Below are positions 11,375 to 20,323 of a stretch of DNA of 49,096 bases, piece after piece. Every line of letters starts with the position of its first letter. Position 1 is the stretch's first letter. The DNA comes from an uncultured Ruminobacter sp. Lineage in GTDB: Bacteria > Pseudomonadota > Gammaproteobacteria > Enterobacterales > Succinivibrionaceae. The position numbers were made by a program, and so were the translations under genes. The DNA is taken from positions 1 to 49,096 of the forward strand of contig CACWVT010000025.1 in the NCBI GenBank assembly GCA_902764345.1, written 5' to 3'. The notes below the pieces were generated by a model. The model worked only from the letters and a program-made list of their open reading frames with translations, did not search any database and had not been told where the DNA came from.

Positions 11375-11821
11375 TTACCAGCAGTGATACTCGTCAGCTA
11401 CATTATGGTATGCAGCAACGGACGAAGCTGAAAACTTTCTTCCTAAACTATTGATGCCCAATGCGTGACAATTAGTCTCGTCACGAGTCTGTGACCCTGT
11501 AGCAACTACAGAAATATCGTACCTATTTGCCTGAATCCCGGAACCATCAAAAACGTAGTACTGAGAGACATTAGACGGAAGAATATTCACATTATTATTC
11601 CCTGTGTCAGTCAAGCAGTTTAAGTAAGTATTATTTAGCGAGAAACAGTTCTCAAGTGCACTCGCCAACTTTACAAGTTCCTGCTGAGCGTCAGATCTTC
11701 TTGCCTGTACTATATAATTTCTGTATGAAGGAACTGCAATTGCAGAAAGAATACCAATTATTGCAATTGTTATAAGCAACTCTATCAAGGTAAAACCTTT
11801 CTTTGATTTTGAATACATCAT
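11375..11821 (-). CDS. pilE: Type IV minor pilin PilE-like
   Basis: A 148-residue prepilin with leader MMYSKSKKG cut before FTLIELLITIAIIG; the mature protein has Phe1 and Glu5. The globular part has four cysteines, one near the C-terminus (EYHCW), fitting the disulfide loop of PilE-type minor pilins. ATG 11821 has GGG upstream; a GTG at 11827 and an ATG at 11818 are alternatives. It is the last gene of the fimT-pilV-pilW-pilX-pilE operon and lies 18 bp after pilX, where pilY1 would usually be found. Minor pilins are thought to form the priming complex at the pilus tip. PilD, encoded at 47995, would process it. Confidence 0.88.
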   Translation of the reverse strand: MMYSKSKKGFTLIELLITIAIIGILSAIAVPSYRNYIVQARRSDAQQELVKLASALENCFSLNNTYLNCLTDTGNNNVNILPSNVSQYYVFDGSGIQANRYDISVVATGSQTRDETNCHALGINSLGRKFSASSVAAYHNVADEYHCW

Positions 11822-11839
11822 AAACACAACCCAAAAAAA

Positions 11840-12475
11840 TTAAAGCAACGAAACTGAAACTCTCACAACTGTCTGGTAAATAGCTGCCGAGGAGGAATTG
11901 GCCACACCATCGACACCTAAAGCAGTAATCCTAAAGTAATGTTCCTCGATATCTGAATTATTACCTGGACCCGGTAATCTCTTCATCAGTTCGACATAGT
12001 AGATCGTATTACCGTCATTCAGTACAACACACCTATTCCTATTAGCATCATCAACATTAACACACCCACTATCCCAGGCATTATCCACTCTATACCAAGG
12101 AGTTTTACTTGAAATAACGTTAACACCATCTTGCAGAGGCTTAAGGCCATTAAAAAATTCGCTAACGTCAGATAGAGAACCATTTATGTAAACAGAAGTA
12201 GGATCTATAGATATTCCATTAGGATTATCCAAACCTAACGCTCGTCTTTCATCCTGCCCAATGGCATCCGGCCTACTTAAAACAGCTAAGAAATTAATTG
12301 CTCTGTTAGCACCGGATATAGCATTATTAGCACCAACAACCCTACCATAATTAGAATTGTCTCCTCTCTGCGTTTTTGCCGTTATCCCAGCTAATGACAG
12401 TGCGATTATTCCAACAATTACCGTAATCATCAGTGCTACAACAAGAGCCACACCCTTCTGATTCTTTATATACAT
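11840..12475 (-). CDS. pilX: Type IV minor pilin PilX-like
   Basis: A 211-residue protein with leader MYIKNQKG followed by VALVVALMITVIVGIIALSLAGI. As in many PilX/GspK-like minor pilins, position 5 of the mature protein is not glutamate. The ATG at 12475 has AGAGG upstream; the in-frame start at 12496 would overlap pilW and lengthen the leader. The remainder is a soluble domain with a disulfide-compatible CVNVDDANRNRC loop. PilX usually sits next to PilY1 and helps place it at the pilus tip, but no pilY1 is present here. Confidence 0.85.
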   Translation of the reverse strand: MYIKNQKGVALVVALMITVIVGIIALSLAGITAKTQRGDNSNYGRVVGANNAISGANRAINFLAVLSRPDAIGQDERRALGLDNPNGISIDPTSVYINGSLSDVSEFFNGLKPLQDGVNVISSKTPWYRVDNAWDSGCVNVDDANRNRCVVLNDGNTIYYVELMKRLPGPGNNSDIEEHYFRITALGVDGVANSSSAAIYQTVVRVSVSLL

Positions 12476-12488
12476 ATCAGAACACCTC

Positions 12489-13391
12489 TTAATCATAATT
12501 TTGCGGATTGTTTAACAAAGATACGGTACCAGAAATAATCTTATGCATTCTGGTAGAATCCTGAATGGCATACGTTCCGTACCCTGCATCAGCGAACCCA
12601 TCAAATAACGTAATTTCTGCACCATTGCCGGATCTCACCACGCGCTGACCAGTTCCCTGAGAAGTAACCATATAATACTTTACAAGATTAACATCTTTCC
12701 AAAGATTATTCGCATTCAAATATTCAGCCGTATAATACGAATCAGAATCCGCTTCACCTTCTCTTGTAGTTATTCCGTACAGAACCTGCATGTCAACTAC
12801 GGAAGAATCAACTACAACTGGTGCATTCAAATTCCAATCACTAGCCCCCTCCAATGCATGCTGATTACACATCAGCCCATCCGGTCCGACATACAATATC
12901 ATCTCAAGCTGAACCGTATTTGGAACATTCACACCTCTACAGTCAAAAATAAAACCATTAGCCGTAGGATCGCCAAAGAATGATGAATTATCACTTACAT
13001 CATCAGCTACAGATGCACCAAAGAATCTAAACTTTACACTGTTAGACGTATTGTTGTTCAGATTGGTTGTCTCTCCACCTAAAATGAAAACATCATCTGT
13101 CCAAGCACGGGTATTATTTAAGTCGCTACCGTTAAATCCTGTAGCAACACTATTAAAATGATAATTCTGAATAACCCTTCTATAGTTTATATAACCAGCC
13201 TGAAACATGAGTGTATTGACAATATTATCAACCTGTCTCGCACTCTTGCTAGATCTGGCTGTAGCACTTGATATACCAAAGTTTAACCAGCTAGATGTAA
13301 CCATCTGATACAGACCGGCAACTATAATGGAAGCGACAAGAATACTGATCATTAATTCTATTAAGCCAAAGCCTTTTTGATTAAGTTTCAT
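12489..13391 (-). CDS. pilW: Type IV minor pilin PilW-like
   Basis: A 300-residue prepilin with a short leader, MKLNQKG, and mature start FGLIELMISILVASIIVAGLYQM (Phe1 and Glu5 intact). The large C-terminal domain is polar and Asn-rich, as in PilW/PilJ-type minor pilins. Its ATG overlaps the pilV stop as TAATG, so translation is probably coupled, and GGAGG lies upstream. The assignment as PilW rests on length, leader and operon place; sequence identity to known PilW is expected to be low. Confidence 0.85.
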   Translation of the reverse strand: MKLNQKGFGLIELMISILVASIIVAGLYQMVTSSWLNFGISSATARSSKSARQVDNIVNTLMFQAGYINYRRVIQNYHFNSVATGFNGSDLNNTRAWTDDVFILGGETTNLNNNTSNSVKFRFFGASVADDVSDNSSFFGDPTANGFIFDCRGVNVPNTVQLEMILYVGPDGLMCNQHALEGASDWNLNAPVVVDSSVVDMQVLYGITTREGEADSDSYYTAEYLNANNLWKDVNLVKYYMVTSQGTGQRVVRSGNGAEITLFDGFADAGYGTYAIQDSTRMHKIISGTVSLLNNPQNYD

Positions 13392-14005
13392 TACAGCATT
13401 ACCTCCACCTTACTGCACACAACGCCAGCAGACACGCGGTCTTGATTATATTTTTCCCCTCTCTCATTCTCGTTGAGCGGGCAATATTTAGCAACGGTCA
13501 CTGACTCAACGTCCTGAGTCTGATCCTGTCTAATACCTGCTTTTTTGGGAACATATGCAAAACTTATTCTCAGCCTATAAGAATAAATTTCAGTTTTGGG
13601 CACATGACGACGATCCAATTGGAATGCAATATCATGGGCAACAATTTTATTTGACTGTTCTATCTGAGCGCATATATCACTAACCCCAAATCCCAAAACC
13701 GAGTTGACTGTTGTGGTTTCTCCCCTATGCCAAAGTTGGCCGGGTGCATTTTCACAAGTAAAAGCTATTCTGCTAATATTCTCTGTCTCAGTCGGCCAGT
13801 TCAAAGTTGAAACAGATCTGGTACTTACCTGAAATAATTTCACAAAATCATTAAGTACGGCTGTTTCTGAAGTTCTTGAGTACGATCCGCTCAACGCTCT
13901 TGTACTGTATGCCTGCAAAGCGGCATAACCTAACAATGCAATTGACACAATAAGCATTGACACCATAAGTTCCAGTAATGAAAAACCCTTCTGTTTTCTT
14001 AACAT
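13391..14005 (-). CDS. pilV: Type IV minor pilin PilV-like
   Basis: A 204-residue prepilin: leader MLRKQKG, then FSLLELMVSMLIVSIALLGYAALQ, with Glu5. The LELMVSMLIVSIALLG pattern is typical of PilV. The ATG at 14005 has a strong AGGAGG; the preceding fimT stop codon overlaps that ribosome site, 10 bp away. The earlier in-frame start at 14050 would bury the leader and is rejected. The C-terminal part has several cysteines. It is the second gene of the minor-pilin operon. Confidence 0.86.
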   Translation of the reverse strand: MLRKQKGFSLLELMVSMLIVSIALLGYAALQAYSTRALSGSYSRTSETAVLNDFVKLFQVSTRSVSTLNWPTETENISRIAFTCENAPGQLWHRGETTTVNSVLGFGVSDICAQIEQSNKIVAHDIAFQLDRRHVPKTEIYSYRLRISFAYVPKKAGIRQDQTQDVESVTVAKYCPLNENERGEKYNQDRVSAGVVCSKVEVML

Positions 14006-14015
14006 GTTATCCCTC

Positions 14016-14639
14016 CTAGAACCCTGCGCAGTTATTGTTGGTATCATCAAAAGCCTTGGTTATGTCACCTGACGGTCTCATAACTATCGTCCATGTGTTA
14101 GTCCTACCGCCAATCACGCGGCACACCTTAATGGTCACGTTCCCCTGAGCTGCATCCAGATCAAATTCATCATTTCCAGAGATTACTCTCGACATTCCGT
14201 TAGGAAGAAAATTAATATTTGCGTTATGATCGCTGTCGCTTGCCACCGTACCTGCTGCAGTGGTCGGAAAAACCCCCAATCTGATATTGGAATCAGCAAT
14301 ATCCAATTCAGACAGTATATCGTCGTTTTTTCCGTCGTAATCACCTCTCTTCAACGTATATTTGGCGTTTTCGTATACGAAGAAACCGCTCTTCCAATCT
14401 CTGGAACCTGCAACAGTATTCGGTGAAATGGTTACTAATTTGTTTCGTTGCTGTGCAGAAGTTCTTGCCATATCAAGCTCAGAAATCACCTTTTCAGCCA
14501 ACGTGGCAAGATCCTGTTCATAACGCCAATTCCTCATTGCAGGAAGTGCAGTTAACATTAAAATACCCGCGATAACTATTGCTATAACCATTTCAATTAA
14601 TGTAAAGCCTTTTTGACCACGAGTTTCAGGTGACGACAT
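14016..14639 (-). CDS. fimT: Type IV minor pilin FimT/GspH-like
   Basis: A 207-residue prepilin with leader MSSPETRGQKG cut before FTLIEMVIAIVIAGILMLTALP. The helix, then LATLAEKVISELDMARTSAQQRNKLVTISP, is the characteristic GspH/FimT pattern, and the C-terminus has two well-separated cysteines. The ATG at 14639 has a near-perfect AGGAGGT; the in-frame start at 14732 would put 30 residues before the leader. It heads the operon, so its promoter must lie in 14640-14760, where TATTATAAAT occurs on the minus strand. In other species FimT/FimU seeds pilus assembly, and FimT can bind DNA during uptake; DNA binding here is untested. Confidence 0.87.
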   Translation of the reverse strand: MSSPETRGQKGFTLIEMVIAIVIAGILMLTALPAMRNWRYEQDLATLAEKVISELDMARTSAQQRNKLVTISPNTVAGSRDWKSGFFVYENAKYTLKRGDYDGKNDDILSELDIADSNIRLGVFPTTAAGTVASDSDHNANINFLPNGMSRVISGNDEFDLDAAQGNVTIKVCRVIGGRTNTWTIVMRPSGDITKAFDDTNNNCAGF

Positions 14640-15072
14640 GCTTCCACCTCCTGTGTACAACATACCCGTCATATTCAGATAAGTCATAATAAACTCCGTT
14701 AGACTCAATTTATAATAATCCACACTCCTCAATTTTAATTAGTTTTTTAATCTTTGTTACACTTGAGTTAAATATTTGAGAGATAAATACAAAAAAAATC
14801 ACAATAATGATAACATTATGTAAACGGTTCCATTGTTTTGTGCGAAATCAATCAATTTTTTAAAGAAGAGTCTAATGATACGCACGTCATTGTGTGATCT
14901 GACATCAAAAAAACAAGTAGTCAATGTTATAACAAGGTTGTGATAAGCTCATAATTTGGTAGTAGTGACACGTACCCGCCATTCTTATCGCCCCGTAAGT
15001 CCTCTATTGATCTTCCAAATATTTAAGAAATTTATAAAAATCATCTTTCATTATCCCCTAATTCGTGAGCAT

Positions 15073-15093
15073 CTAAGGAAACTTAGGCTTTTT
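15073..15093 (+). terminator. Orphan plus-strand terminator-like hairpin
   Basis: CTAAG (15073-15077), loop GAAA, CTTAG (15082-15086), then GC and TTTTT (15089-15093). No plus-strand gene precedes it inside the 14640-15072 gap, so it would end either a small RNA or nothing. Confidence 0.4.
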
Positions 15094-15198
15094 GCATTTT
15101 TGCATATATTATATTTATAATTTAATCTATAATTTTTCGTTGAAAAAATGACATTTTATAAAAAAAAATAATTTTTTTTGGTTATCCGAAAATATTTA

Positions 15199-15227
15199 TT
15201 GCACAAAATTACGTTTTTCACAATAAT
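15199..15227 (+). promoter_or_regulatory. Candidate promoter for the decarboxylase leader
   Basis: TTGCAC (15199-15204), 17 bp, AATAAT (15222-15227). It would start a leader of about 120 bases that includes all the helices described at 15253-15357. The -35 match is weak and the region is A-T rich, so other -10 choices exist. Confidence 0.3.
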
Positions 15228-15252
15228 GCACAAACTAAAAAAATTTTAAGCT

Positions 15253-15357
15253 TTATCAGAGGCACTTTTTATAAAAAAACATCTCTCGAAAGAGGGCTTC
15301 TGATAATAATCTTTTGGCAGGGGTGCAAACCCATTTGTGAGGTGCTACTAGAAGCCC
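15253..15357 (+). promoter_or_regulatory. Two-state structured leader (riboswitch-like) of the decarboxylase
   Basis: Two helices compete for bases 15296-15301. Helix A is TTATCAGAGGC (15253-15263) with GCTTCTGATAA (15296-15306), 11 bp including one G-U. Helix B is GGGCTTCT (15294-15301) with AGAAGCCC (15350-15357), 8 bp, ending directly before the ATG at 15358. Inside helix B is a 4-bp hairpin, GGGT-GCAA-ACCC (15321-15332), with a GNRA tetraloop. CTCT-CGAA-AGAG (15283-15294) lies inside helix A. Helix B would enclose the GAGG ribosome site and block the start region. Such an arrangement resembles a translation-controlling riboswitch; polyamine-gene leaders such as the speF family are precedents. 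The ligand is unknown. Confidence 0.55.
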
Positions 15358-16509
15358 ATGAACAATTTATTCAATACTAAACTTAATTATCGCGAACTTA
15401 TCAATAAGCATGGTTCTCCTTTATTGATATTAGATAAAGCCACAGTTCGTTTTCAGTATCAGGAACTCTCAAGAGCTCTGCCGGGCGTGACCCTTCATTA
15501 TGCATTAAAACCGCTACCAAACAAAGACGTCGTTGCTTCTCTTCTTGAAGAAGGTGCCTGCTTTGATCTCGCTTCCAAGGGAGAAATTGACCTCGTAAGA
15601 TCCTTAAACATTGATCCTCTGCAGTGCATTCATACACACCCAATCAAGAAAGATCTGGACATCAGATACTCTCTTGATTATGGTTGCAACACATTTGTAG
15701 TGGATAATGCGGAAGAAGCCAAAAAATTCATTCCGTACAAGAACGATGTTAAGCTTCTTGTCAGGGTAAGCTTTCCTAATCCGGAAACTCCTGTGGATTT
15801 GTCAAAAAAATTCGGGGTTCTGCCAGGGGACTGTCTTGAACTCTTAAAGTTGGCAGGAAGTTTGGGATTGAATATTCACGGCCTGTCATTCCATGTAGGG
15901 TCTCAGGTTCCTAACGCCAACAGACATGTTGAAGCCATAAATGACTGTGCCCAGATTATCAAGGAAGCTGCCGATGCGGGTATCAACCTTAAGGTTCTTG
16001 ATATCGGCGGTGGCTTCCCTGTAGATTACGAAAAGGCTGAAAGCACAAATATATACAGTTTCTGTGCCCCTATCCGTGAAGCGTTGAAGCAGATACCTGA
16101 TGACATCAGGGTTATCGCAGAACCGGGAAGATTCCTTAGTGCTCCTGCTATGATTAACATCTGTACCGTTGTCGGCAAGGCCGAAAGATTCAACAAGCCT
16201 TGGTATTACCTTGACGACGGTGTGTACTGCAGCTACAGCGGTCAGATTTTCGACCATGTAATCTATCCTAAGTTTACACCTTATGTTGACGGTGATAGAG
16301 AAGAATCAGTTCTTGCCGGCCCTACCTGTGACAGCATAGACATCATTGCCGAAAACATCAAGCTTCCAAAGCTTGATATCGGTGACATCGTTGTCGGAAA
16401 GATGATGGGAGCATACACCATCTCCACAGCAACTGAATTCAACTTCATCAACAAGACAGACATTCTCGTTATCGATACCGAAAGGGATGCAGAATATCAG
16501 AATGCCTAA
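15358..16509 (+). CDS. Fold-III PLP-dependent ornithine/lysine-type decarboxylase
   Basis: A 383-residue alanine-racemase-fold (group IV) decarboxylase like eukaryotic-type ornithine decarboxylase. Lys51 in HYALKPLP should bind PLP. SFHVGSQ, DIGGGFP (phosphate loop) and AEPGRF follow. The C-terminal barrel has GPTCDSIDII with the catalytic cysteine at about 324, and YYLDDGVYCSYSG. The CDS motif and the length point to ornithine or lysine rather than diaminopimelate as substrate, giving putrescine or cadaverine; the exact substrate is not certain. It is a single gene with its own structured leader and a strong terminator (16544-16570). Confidence 0.9.
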   Translation: MNNLFNTKLNYRELINKHGSPLLILDKATVRFQYQELSRALPGVTLHYALKPLPNKDVVASLLEEGACFDLASKGEIDLVRSLNIDPLQCIHTHPIKKDLDIRYSLDYGCNTFVVDNAEEAKKFIPYKNDVKLLVRVSFPNPETPVDLSKKFGVLPGDCLELLKLAGSLGLNIHGLSFHVGSQVPNANRHVEAINDCAQIIKEAADAGINLKVLDIGGGFPVDYEKAESTNIYSFCAPIREALKQIPDDIRVIAEPGRFLSAPAMINICTVVGKAERFNKPWYYLDDGVYCSYSGQIFDHVIYPKFTPYVDGDREESVLAGPTCDSIDIIAENIKLPKLDIGDIVVGKMMGAYTISTATEFNFINKTDILVIDTERDAEYQNA

Positions 16510-16543
16510 CGCAAGTTGACACCTGGACAAGCAATAATCAGCA

Positions 16544-16570
16544 AAAACTGCCGAAAGGCAGTTTTTTTTT
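16544..16570 (+). terminator. Strong terminator of the decarboxylase gene
   Basis: AAAACTGCC (16544-16552), loop GAAA, GGCAGTTTT (16557-16565), with the T-run reaching 16570. It is a textbook intrinsic terminator 35 bp after the stop. Confidence 0.95.
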
Positions 16571-16675
16571 GCATCTTAGTCAAGATTGTTTTCAGTGAAA
16601 ATCATTGAGGCCATGCAAACCGTCCTGCCGCAATAACTTCAGGTCGTTGAATGCACCGGGAGCCTGTAAATAAAA

Positions 16676-16728
16676 AGGCCTCCCATCCTAAATTCCGTAA
16701 TTTACGAAATTAAAACATGGGAGGACCT
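16676..16728 (-). terminator. Terminator of the acyltransferase gene
   Basis: AGGCCTCCCAT (16676-16686) pairs with ATGGGAGGACCT (16717-16728) with one bulged A. On the minus strand TTTTTATTT follows. The 30-nt loop contains a smaller TTCGTAA/TTACGGA-type hairpin. Confidence 0.75.
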
Positions 16729-16757
16729 ATATACCCGTAAGACATAAAAATTAAGTC

Positions 16758-17945
16758 TTAGGACTTCTTTGCATTCTGCTGATTGAAATAAGGTGCGGCA
16801 TACATTTTCTTTACATAATCGCGAAGCTTAGGATCAATTCCAGATATTCTATCTTCAAATTTCTTCTTTTCTTCTTCACTTACACCTTCAGTAACACCTG
16901 CTGAAAGAAGACATGACGGGAACATGGCATAATTTGCATAAATAAAATTATCTATGGTTTCAGCCAATTTCTCAGGGGTCTCAAAATCTCCGGTAAGAGG
17001 ATCGCCGGCCACAATGTTGACCCTCCCCTTATAACCGTTTATACCGCCCACTATGCTGTCAATGTCTTCGAACTGAGACTTGACATAACTGCCGTTCTTT
17101 TCAGTCTCATACAACTCTTTTGCCTTGGCTGCGTCACCGGGATCAAATTCATACGTAATTGATACCGGAACAATATTCAGTGTCTTAACATACTCAGCAA
17201 AAGTAAGCTTCTTTTTCTTGCCATACATGTAAAACATCTTCAGAATCGCTTCTTCGGTCTTGTCATTACCATCCTTGGCTCTACCTTCCCTCTGAGCAAT
17301 CCACACATTATGATTTTCCTCGATGGAACGGCCGATATATTCACTTAAATGAGCAAGAGCCTTTAACTTATCCCTGCCCTGGACGGATCTTTTAACAATA
17401 AAGCTTTTGTTTAAACGCATAAGATCAGTAGCAACCTGCATACGTAAAAGATTATCACCGATGGCTATCTTTACGGTATCCAGATTATTAAAGTAACATG
17501 CCATGTCAATAAATGCGGGATCCAGCGATATATCGCGGTGATTTGAAATAAACAGATATCCTTTTTTAGGATCCAGCTTTTCGAATCCCCTGCAGGTAAA
17601 TCCGTCAGTGGTATCCCTTATGATACCTTTCATAAACTTGGCAACATATTCCTGAACCTGAGCTATTGTCCTGACCCTGGAGAAGCGCATCTTTAAAACA
17701 AACTTTATAAACGGCTTGCCCAGTTTTGACAGAAAATCAGGCAGAAAACCGAATATTCTCTTATAGATGCCGGTAACCAGCTCTTCATTATCCAGTATAC
17801 TCTGTATGGCATCATGAACCTCATCATCACGATAATGTCTGATATCGTCAAACTCGGAAGATTCAGTAGTAATCACTTCTGCGGCTTCTGTCTGAGATAA
17901 AACCTTCTGACTTTCACTGTTCTGAGCGGAAGAATCTGTGCTCAT
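16758..17945 (-). CDS. PlsC-like phospholipid/glycerol acyltransferase
   Basis: A 395-residue protein with a central PlsC-type domain. NHRDISLD fits the catalytic H-x4-D box (about residue 135), and REGRAKDG is in the place of the EGTR motif that binds glycerol phosphate. Such enzymes transfer acyl chains to lysophosphatidate or related lipids. It is much longer than PlsC (about 245): the N-terminal 45 residues are acidic and probably disordered, and about 100 residues follow the catalytic region. No strong membrane helix is visible, so it may be peripheral. GGAG precedes the ATG. Substrate is unknown. It is divergent from crp with a 329-bp gap. Confidence 0.78.
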   Translation of the reverse strand: MSTDSSAQNSESQKVLSQTEAAEVITTESSEFDDIRHYRDDEVHDAIQSILDNEELVTGIYKRIFGFLPDFLSKLGKPFIKFVLKMRFSRVRTIAQVQEYVAKFMKGIIRDTTDGFTCRGFEKLDPKKGYLFISNHRDISLDPAFIDMACYFNNLDTVKIAIGDNLLRMQVATDLMRLNKSFIVKRSVQGRDKLKALAHLSEYIGRSIEENHNVWIAQREGRAKDGNDKTEEAILKMFYMYGKKKKLTFAEYVKTLNIVPVSITYEFDPGDAAKAKELYETEKNGSYVKSQFEDIDSIVGGINGYKGRVNIVAGDPLTGDFETPEKLAETIDNFIYANYAMFPSCLLSAGVTEGVSEEEKKKFEDRISGIDPKLRDYVKKMYAAPYFNQQNAKKS

Positions 17946-19117: not shown

Positions 19118-20323
19118 TTAGCAGGAAAATACCACTGCTAAAGCCTTATCCATACGAGCAAAGCCTTCGTTAATATCGTCAACTGTAATATTAAGCGCAG
19201 GAACGGTTCTGATAACACTGTGCCCCGCAGTCAGAACAAACAATCCCTGATTCAGACATTCAGAGGTAATCTTCTTCAGCAGAGATTCATCCTTCAGTTC
19301 AGCACCAATCATCAAACCGACACCGCGAACTTCCTTGAAACAGTCGTACTTGGCATTAAGCTTTTCATAATGCTGTCTGAATAAATCAGCCTTTTCAGTA
19401 ACTTCATTTAAGAAACCAGGTCTGTTAACCAGTTCAAAAGACTTACAGCCAACAGCAGTGGCCAGAGGATTGGAACCAAAGGTGGTACCATGAAGTCCAG
19501 GCTTGAAAACAGATGCTACTTTATCCTTAGCAAGCATTGCTCCGATGGCAATACCTGCACCCAATCCCTTTGCTGAAGACATAATGTCCGGTTCAACCTG
19601 ATAGTACTGGTATGCGTATAAATAACCCGTTCTGCCGAAGCCGGTCTGAACTTCATCAAAAATCAGCAGTGCATCATTTTCATCACAAAGCTGGCGAACC
19701 CCTTTGATGAATTCAGGATCTGCCGGAAGGATACCGCCTTCACCCTGAATAGGTTCCATGATGACCGCACAGGTTCTCTCTTTTGAAATCAGAGACTTAA
19801 GCTGTTCAAGATTATTGAACTCGGCGTGAATAATGTCACCTGGTAACGGACCAAAACCTTCACAGTATTTAGCCTGACCACCAACCGTAACATCAAACAG
19901 GGTTCTTCCATGGAAACTGTTATAGAATGATATTATCTGAGATTTTTCCTTTCCGTACTTCTCAAAAGCGTATCTGCGGGCAAGCTTTAATGCAGCTTCA
20001 TTGGCTTCGCCGCCTGAATTTGCAAAAAATACCTTATCCGCAAAGGTACTCTCTACCAGATGCTTAGCCAAAGTGATTGCAGGCTCTGTGCACATATAGT
20101 TTGAAATGTGCCACAGCTTATGAGCCTGTTCATCCAGTGCAGAAACAATTTCAGGATTGCAGTGTCCCATTACGTTGACAGCGATACCGCCACCGAAATC
20201 GACATATTCCCTTCCTGCATCATCCCAGAATCTGGAGCCGCTTCCCTTTACCGCTACAAATGGAGCCGGACAGTAAACACCCATCAAATACTTATCAAAA
20301 TCTGCTCTGGTAACATTACTCAT
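19118..20323 (-). CDS. argD: Acetylornithine/succinyldiaminopimelate aminotransferase
   Basis: A 401-residue class-III PLP aminotransferase close to E. coli ArgD/AstC (406). Motifs: YVDFGGGIAVNVMGHC, NSGGEANEAALKLAR, EPIQGEGG, FDEVQTGFGRTG and SSAKGLGAG with the PLP lysine. It converts N-acetylglutamate semialdehyde to N-acetylornithine, and usually also serves in lysine synthesis. Two ARG boxes overlap its predicted promoter, so it is most likely the biosynthetic ArgD under ArgR repression rather than the catabolic AstC. No ast genes are nearby. It stands alone, 180 bp downstream of the RND pump gene. GAGG lies about 12 bases before the ATG. Confidence 0.93.
   Translation of the reverse strand: MSNVTRADFDKYLMGVYCPAPFVAVKGSGSRFWDDAGREYVDFGGGIAVNVMGHCNPEIVSALDEQAHKLWHISNYMCTEPAITLAKHLVESTFADKVFFANSGGEANEAALKLARRYAFEKYGKEKSQIISFYNSFHGRTLFDVTVGGQAKYCEGFGPLPGDIIHAEFNNLEQLKSLISKERTCAVIMEPIQGEGGILPADPEFIKGVRQLCDENDALLIFDEVQTGFGRTGYLYAYQYYQVEPDIMSSAKGLGAGIAIGAMLAKDKVASVFKPGLHGTTFGSNPLATAVGCKSFELVNRPGFLNEVTEKADLFRQHYEKLNAKYDCFKEVRGVGLMIGAELKDESLLKKITSECLNQGLFVLTAGHSVIRTVPALNITVDDINEGFARMDKALAVVFSC

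Follow-up and report, generated by a model that had tools for sequence, protein, structure and literature searches.

The window analysed here is a 49,096-nt contig of the 2.49-Mb genome of an uncultured Ruminobacter sp. (completeness 92%). It carries a gene for a lysine/ornithine-type fold-III PLP decarboxylase of 383 aa (15358..16509, + strand; PF02784, PF00278). The earlier note had taken the product for an ornithine/lysine-type decarboxylase, and we agree: the best solved relative is the lysine/ornithine decarboxylase 2PLJ (E 1.1e-122), from Vibrio vulnificus, and the score under the NCBIfam lysA model is 185.7 bits versus a cut-off of 297.9 bits. Neither a PF01276 decarboxylase nor a PF01564 spermidine synthase was found in the same genome at its completeness of 92%. 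With no PF01276 hit and LysA as the sole other PF02784 protein of the genome, the gene is apparently the cell's only ornithine/lysine decarboxylase. It looks monocistronic because of a terminator-like hairpin with a T tail on its 3' side (16543..16566, + strand; three such sites in 14700-16800, shuffle mean 1.9). A cluster of five ORFs on the - strand (11375-14732) diverges from the decarboxylase gene; four of them have N-terminal GF.L.E prepilin-like motifs, as judged by eye.

A probable sigma-70 promoter (TTGCAC, 17 nt, AATAAT; 15199..15227, + strand) was recognised by eye, and the same block is present in 4/4 Ruminobacter leaders; the transcript would probably begin near 15233. An automatic promoter scan gave a version shifted by one base (15200-15227), and the number of such sites, 7 versus 6.6 in shuffles, is not in excess.

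In the leader, the earlier note had read two overlapping helices, and its reading of the letters is right. Helix A joins 15253-15263 (UUAUCAGAGGC) with 15296-15306 (GCUUCUGAUAA) by 11 bp including one G-U; helix B joins 15294-15301 (GGGCUUCU) with 15350-15357 (AGAAGCCC) by 8 Watson-Crick bp and ends at the AUG; the two helices have 15296-15301 in common, and a GNRA hairpin, GGGU-GCAA-ACCC, lies at 15321-15332. The statement that helix B would hide the GAGG is accurate in one part only: helix B encloses 15339-15342, but GAGG stays in its unpaired interior and does not pair with it. The helix A segment (15253..15306, + strand) folds at -17.4 kcal/mol versus -8.9 +/- 2.5 for dinucleotide shuffles (z -3.4; 0/300 as good), and of 200 base-shuffled upstream sequences, about 1% contain a stretch that matches the leader's final 8 nt over at least 8 bp. 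The whole of 15240-15380 is unremarkable (z -1.45; 17/200 shuffles fold as well).

Orthologues of the decarboxylase at E <= 1e-60 were found in 14 of 56 Succinivibrionaceae genomes, so that the leader set is fourteen, from one family and from genomes of uneven completeness, with the longer core aligned by hand. The order of the core is a pyrimidine tract, 4-6 nt, a hairpin (P2), 6 nt, GAGGUG, 12-13 nt and AUG, and the part from P2 to the AUG is present with this layout in 14/14 leaders. In the window, an AU-rich stretch ends in the pyrimidine tract UCUUUU (15305..15315, + strand; elsewhere UUCUUC, UUUUUC and similar), and the 5' linker GGCAG follows (15316..15320, + strand; elsewhere 4-6 nt of variable sequence). 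P2 is the GNRA hairpin already mentioned (15321..15332, + strand), its structure kept and its sequence replaced between leaders. The next linker, AUUUGU (15333..15338, + strand; elsewhere AUUUGC, AUUUGA, AUAUGA or UAAGUC), has 6 nt in 14/14 leaders, provided that the P2 stem of the leader G032 is counted as 5 bp; were a further G-U pair added to that stem, only 5 nt would remain. The Shine-Dalgarno-like hexamer GAGGUG (15339..15344, + strand) is invariant in all fourteen, and the spacer before the AUG (15345..15357, + strand; 13 nt, the last 8 being the 3' arm of helix B) measures 12-13 nt in all of them. Within Ruminobacter the core is nearly invariant and the preceding 60 nt or so are not. 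No upstream ORF conserved in frame was seen by eye across the 14 leaders. Outer helices drawn by hand (GGCA/UGCU or CCU/AGG) and a pseudoknot between the loop and the linker were dropped, as their register varies between lineages.

The arms of P2 are GGGU/ACCC, GGGGU/ACCCC, GGGGC/GCCCC, GUGGC/GCCAC and GAGAC/GUCUC. In the hand alignment of 12 distinct rows, which was drawn to fit P2, pairing is possible in 53/53 cells, 8 of them with double changes; 0/1000 shuffles, which ignore relatedness, reach either value, and partners slid along the alignment pair far less than the P2 register. Alignment A2 is tool-made (10 rows, without G032) and forces the five pairs into one register; on it P2 is 84% paired (11/500 shuffles as high), with 5 double-change cells (8/500) and a covariation score of 0.302 (1/500). 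Two other counts on A2 are no better than chance, namely 2 pairs with double changes (323/500) and 2 further pair types (472/500). On the protein tree the four stem classes (GGGU and GGGGU taken as one) need three changes, the minimum for four; two of the classes are represented by one row each, G032 is on a long branch and part of the forks are left open. The core is a conserved structured cis-RNA: it exists in all fourteen leaders, its P2 covaries, its geometry is fixed and, within the 56 genomes of the family, it is restricted to this gene.

The two-state switch proposed in the earlier note, in which helices A and B would exclude each other and so control the start region, finds its evidence in the window, where both helices are present, the helix A segment has a z of -3.4 and the 8-bp partner of helix B recurs in about 1% of shuffles only. 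Upstream of the leader's final 8 nt, the longest stretch that matches them has 8 bp in the window but 6, 5 and 4 bp in its three congeners G024, G023 and G025, lengths reached by 1%, 12%, 59% and 70% of shuffles, respectively. The best match in the other ten leaders is 4-7 bp; the 7-bp match (10% of shuffles) and one 5-bp match (4%) are A-runs, and at least 40% of shuffles reach the remaining ones. Among the other three Ruminobacter leaders, only that of the nearest genome (G024) has the same helix A arms, whose sequence is not kept in G023 and G025. In the Ruminobacter alignment the region from the -10 element to about 15242 and the final 60 nt or so before the AUG are nearly invariant, and the variable stretch between them contains helix A and the 5' arm of helix B. 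The earlier note had staked the switch on conservation among orthologues; helix B does not show it, and helix A shows it only within the two nearest genomes.

The upstream segment as such gives z of -3.41, -3.12, -2.19, -1.31, -3.36, -0.32, 0.44, 0.15, -0.29, -1.99, -0.84, -0.36, -1.60 and 0.19 in the 14 leaders, with fixed bounds that in some leaders take in untranscribed promoter bases; z is -1.9 or lower in only five (L011, L012, L013, L050, L052) and above zero in three. A general 5' hairpin of variable sequence in the place of helix A was considered; it can be drawn by eye in some leaders, but it was rejected as a general feature, only 5/14 being unusually stable. Because upstream stability and sequence vary among leaders, helix A can be a local hairpin (stable, lineage-specific and outside the conserved core) but not the conserved device. 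Both helices are probably local and not the mechanism; the switch is barely credible, helix B leaves GAGG unpaired, and as a conserved mechanism the switch is already refuted. In a single genome, two exclusive helices can stand out and yet be accidental, with the conserved part right beside them.

The specificity of the core was estimated with a covariance model, R1, built from 10 of the 14 leaders, so that strong hits in the training leaders are expected. In the 56 genomes it gives 13 hits at E <= 1.3e-8, one per genome and all at the decarboxylase start, and the next hits have E of 0.16 and above; the informative part is this lack of other strong hits, since the model was trained on these leaders. 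The fourteenth leader (G032), read by eye, is matched weakly by R1 at the expected position (16.9 bits, E 0.48, among the fetched loci). At E <= 1, R1 finds nothing at the fetched orthologue loci outside the family (29 from the order, 16 from the class); the latter are the orthologues besides the window at E <= 1e-90 among 369 genomes of the class, and many of them, by eye, stand close behind another coding sequence. A strict core pattern, blind to the GCCAC and GUCUC stem classes and to G051, occurs in all genome contigs in 8 stretches, all in genomes of the family already listed; the records are named as Succinivibrionaceae (4), Ruminobacter (2, including R. amylophilus DSM 1361), Aeromonadales (1) and proteobacterium (1). 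Five pattern hits in viral contigs, for which R1 gives at best 20.5 bits (E 0.069, L100), were judged to be chance.

There are no Rfam matches in the whole window at the gathering score. At E <= 10, eight matches in 15100-15500 were taken as chance; the best of them, the Yersinia sRNA Ysr197 (E 0.0051), reaches 20.7 bits versus a cut-off of 167 and was rejected. The models of speF (RF00518), the lysine riboswitch, the SAM family and FourU are all absent at that threshold and in that region. The suggestion of a divergent speF-type motif is therefore not borne out, and the lysine riboswitch model likewise finds no match, either in the window at the gathering score or in 15100-15500 at E <= 10. 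What survives of the earlier proposal is a conserved RNA element at the ribosome-binding site in the 5' leader of the decarboxylase, with no Rfam match at the gathering score. No paper on this decarboxylase leader was found within the open literature searched.

Orthologous decarboxylases elsewhere in the order have leaders of other types. A different, strongly conserved block, TGATAGCCAATCCGAGTACATC ... AAGGC ... AGAGCAACTATCCA.GAGTGA, lies near the likely transcript start at L044, L045, L046, L048/L105 and, more weakly, L043 (same-order genomes G069, G112, G233, G287 and G227, respectively), and five of these loci have no Rfam match at E <= 1. The block is also present at L106 (G282), where no ORF of at least 80 aa follows on the same strand within 1.5 kb, and G282 is absent from the same-order orthologue matches; for both reasons the TGATAGCCAATCCGAGTACATC block may also exist apart from the decarboxylase gene. 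A third type is seen at 21 loci (L020-L040; same-order family f25, which we take to be Aeromonas). It has a conserved CGCCTGA.CCGGCCG hairpin and a GGGC..GCCC hairpin; the latter stands directly before CCTAAGGA, again about 13 nt from the ATG (15/21 aligned). Glycine riboswitch aptamers (RF00504) lie near the decarboxylase in two same-order genomes (L020:3062-3165 and L031:863-973).

The ribosome-binding hexamer GAGGUG is unusually far from the AUG. The spacing was surveyed in 300 kb plus the window, over the 40 nt upstream of 192 uncurated ATG ORFs of at least 200 aa with the first ATG taken as the start. Among these, 32 have at least 6 contiguous matches to the complement of the anti-Shine-Dalgarno; the aligned spacing, counted from the reference G to the start codon, is 5-8 nt in 18/32, 16 for the decarboxylase and longer (21-31) in 6/32, where we suspect start errors. 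GAGGUG itself occurs within 40 nt upstream of only two of these ORFs, with gaps of 3 and 13. An argD-like transaminase gene in the window (19118-20323, - strand) has a GAGGT site also at a long gap (11 nt).

Such a gap brings to mind the polyamine modulon, by analogy with which the distant Shine-Dalgarno would need a polyamine-assisted rearrangement, and diamines would raise the output of the enzyme. According to the available part of PMC4405209, the sites of E. coli soxR and emrR are 10 nt from the AUG (here 12-13 nt in 14/14), and the 2.9- and 3.5-fold polyamine stimulation of their fusions falls to 1.4-fold with the site at the normal position; some modulon mRNAs also have a stem nearby (PMC4405209, PMC4191411, as far as available). 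We consider this reading unlikely: it implies that a biosynthetic enzyme is under positive feedback, and the accessible text of PMC10853860 doubts such a logic for riboswitches. In addition, the spacers contain no clear conserved hairpin by eye. We know of no sequence or gene that the modulon mRNAs share with this leader.

What may face the hexamer is the pyrimidine tract. On the hand alignment, RNAalifold predicts P2 together with a weak 4-bp helix P1 (tract with GAGG; probability 0.47-0.63), closing a 6 x 6 internal loop in which GGCAG would lie opposite AUUUGU. The tract can pair in 46/48 cells, the best of 14 registers (the next gives 43/48); opposite the A of GAGG stands U in 11/12 rows and never C, and opposite the G's both U and C. 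In Ruminobacter P1 consists mostly of G-U pairs, one pair is broken in each of L052 and L015, and the longest pyrimidine run of the tract is reached by 4-56% of shuffles for single leaders. P1 shows no covariation in the hand alignment, because GAGG never varies. The mean unpaired probability of GAGGUG is below 0.5 in 28/28 computations, and its partner is, depending on the leader, the upstream part, the spacer or the coding part; in single-sequence ensembles this burial is not in excess of that with shuffled flanks (mean z -0.08; only L017 of the 14 below 5%). For the latter reason we do no more than infer P1, which enters the following as a hypothetical helix.

The explanation we prefer, with about even confidence, is that the ribosome-binding site carries a translational control element specific to the lineage, in which P2 is the scaffold and the pairing of the tract with GAGG the gate. 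Such an element would set the translation of the decarboxylase: P2 would position the tract opposite GAGG, and the weak P1 would compete with 16S rRNA for it. With the long spacer, initiation would depend on this competition, and therefore ribosome entry would be tunable. The tuning would most plausibly be feedback on the diamine level, acting directly or via a protein; the gate, its direction and its signal are what we infer here.

Much the same picture would be expected from a ribosome-binding site that is constitutive and has a stabilising hairpin. In that case P2 would keep the site open or protect the mRNA, and GAGGUG would recruit the 30S subunit from a distance with no sensing at all. 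The invariance of GAGGUG in 14/14 leaders, a burial of the site within chance and the lack of a conserved ligand-like loop agree with it. We consider it possible, if clearly less probable than a control element, since the strong model hits in 56 genomes are only at the decarboxylase gene, the AUUUG linker and the spacing are kept more than a plain site needs, and the spacing looks poor for constitutive initiation. The linear conservation that adjoins a hairpin of replaceable sequence also allows the single strand AUUUGYGAGGUG to be a candidate binding site for a small RNA or a regulatory protein, P2 then serving as platform or spacer; the partner is putative only and G032 has UAAGUC in place of AUUUGY, and we consider such a target very unlikely.

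Returning to the control element, one should compare it with known leaders of polyamine genes. The speF motif of alphaproteobacteria (RF00518) is likewise upstream of COG0019 ornithine-type decarboxylases; in contrast to the leader here, that motif is a long RNA whose stem is large and branched and in which about 80 nt are conserved, and it lies >150 nt before the start codon (PMC1273637, in the available part). The same part reports that none of ornithine, lysine, diaminopimelate, putrescine, cadaverine and spermidine was seen to bind. The odc1 motif (uORF-25-1, also alphaproteobacterial) is, as here, upstream of an ornithine decarboxylase gene, and its ribosome-binding site forms the 3' side of a hairpin, a feature that the leader here may share. 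Its P1 is extended, with a pseudoknot, and the motif further comprises two adjacent UUG starts and a conserved 11-aa uORF (PMC8632094, in the available part). The leader here differs in its AUG start, in the lack of such a uORF by eye and in a P1 of only 4 weak pairs, and an in-frame UAG stands 9 nt upstream of the AUG. Judging by the available parts of the two papers, no signal has been found for the speF motif (PMC1273637) or for odc1 (PMC8632094). The spermidine riboswitch also controls polyamine genes, including a lysine decarboxylase gene, and is a SAM-I variant (PMC10853860, in the available part); our leader has no SAM-family match. The accessible text of PMC2659441 and PMC2864571 mentions no ornithine decarboxylase leader.

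A U-rich tract opposite the Shine-Dalgarno in a short hairpin is also the design of the FourU RNA thermometers, and the U/C tract here could pair with GAGG in a similar way. The tract, however, is mixed U/C with many G-U pairs, and there is no FourU match at E <= 10. The rumen is thermally steady.

A more specific proposal is a new and very small translational RNA class, so far confined to the Succinivibrionaceae, that would sense diamines (putrescine/cadaverine) or their precursors via the 6 x 6 loop between P2 and the tract:Shine-Dalgarno helix and so control the cell's only lysine/ornithine decarboxylase. We regard this as unlikely. The internal loop varies on its 5' side (GGCAG, GGCCU, GGUCU, AUCCU, AUCG), which speaks against a ligand pocket.

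As far as the available parts of the sources tell, the leader RNAs of ornithine/lysine decarboxylases (the speF motif, the odc1 motif and the Salmonella speF leader) are mutually unrelated. The present one is a decarboxylase leader at the ribosome-binding site, and we found no known class under which to file it. An element of about 50 nt, with fixed geometry and at one gene, is a compact place to study how an RNA adjusts diamine synthesis, in a host with apparently neither a second ornithine/lysine decarboxylase nor a spermidine synthase.
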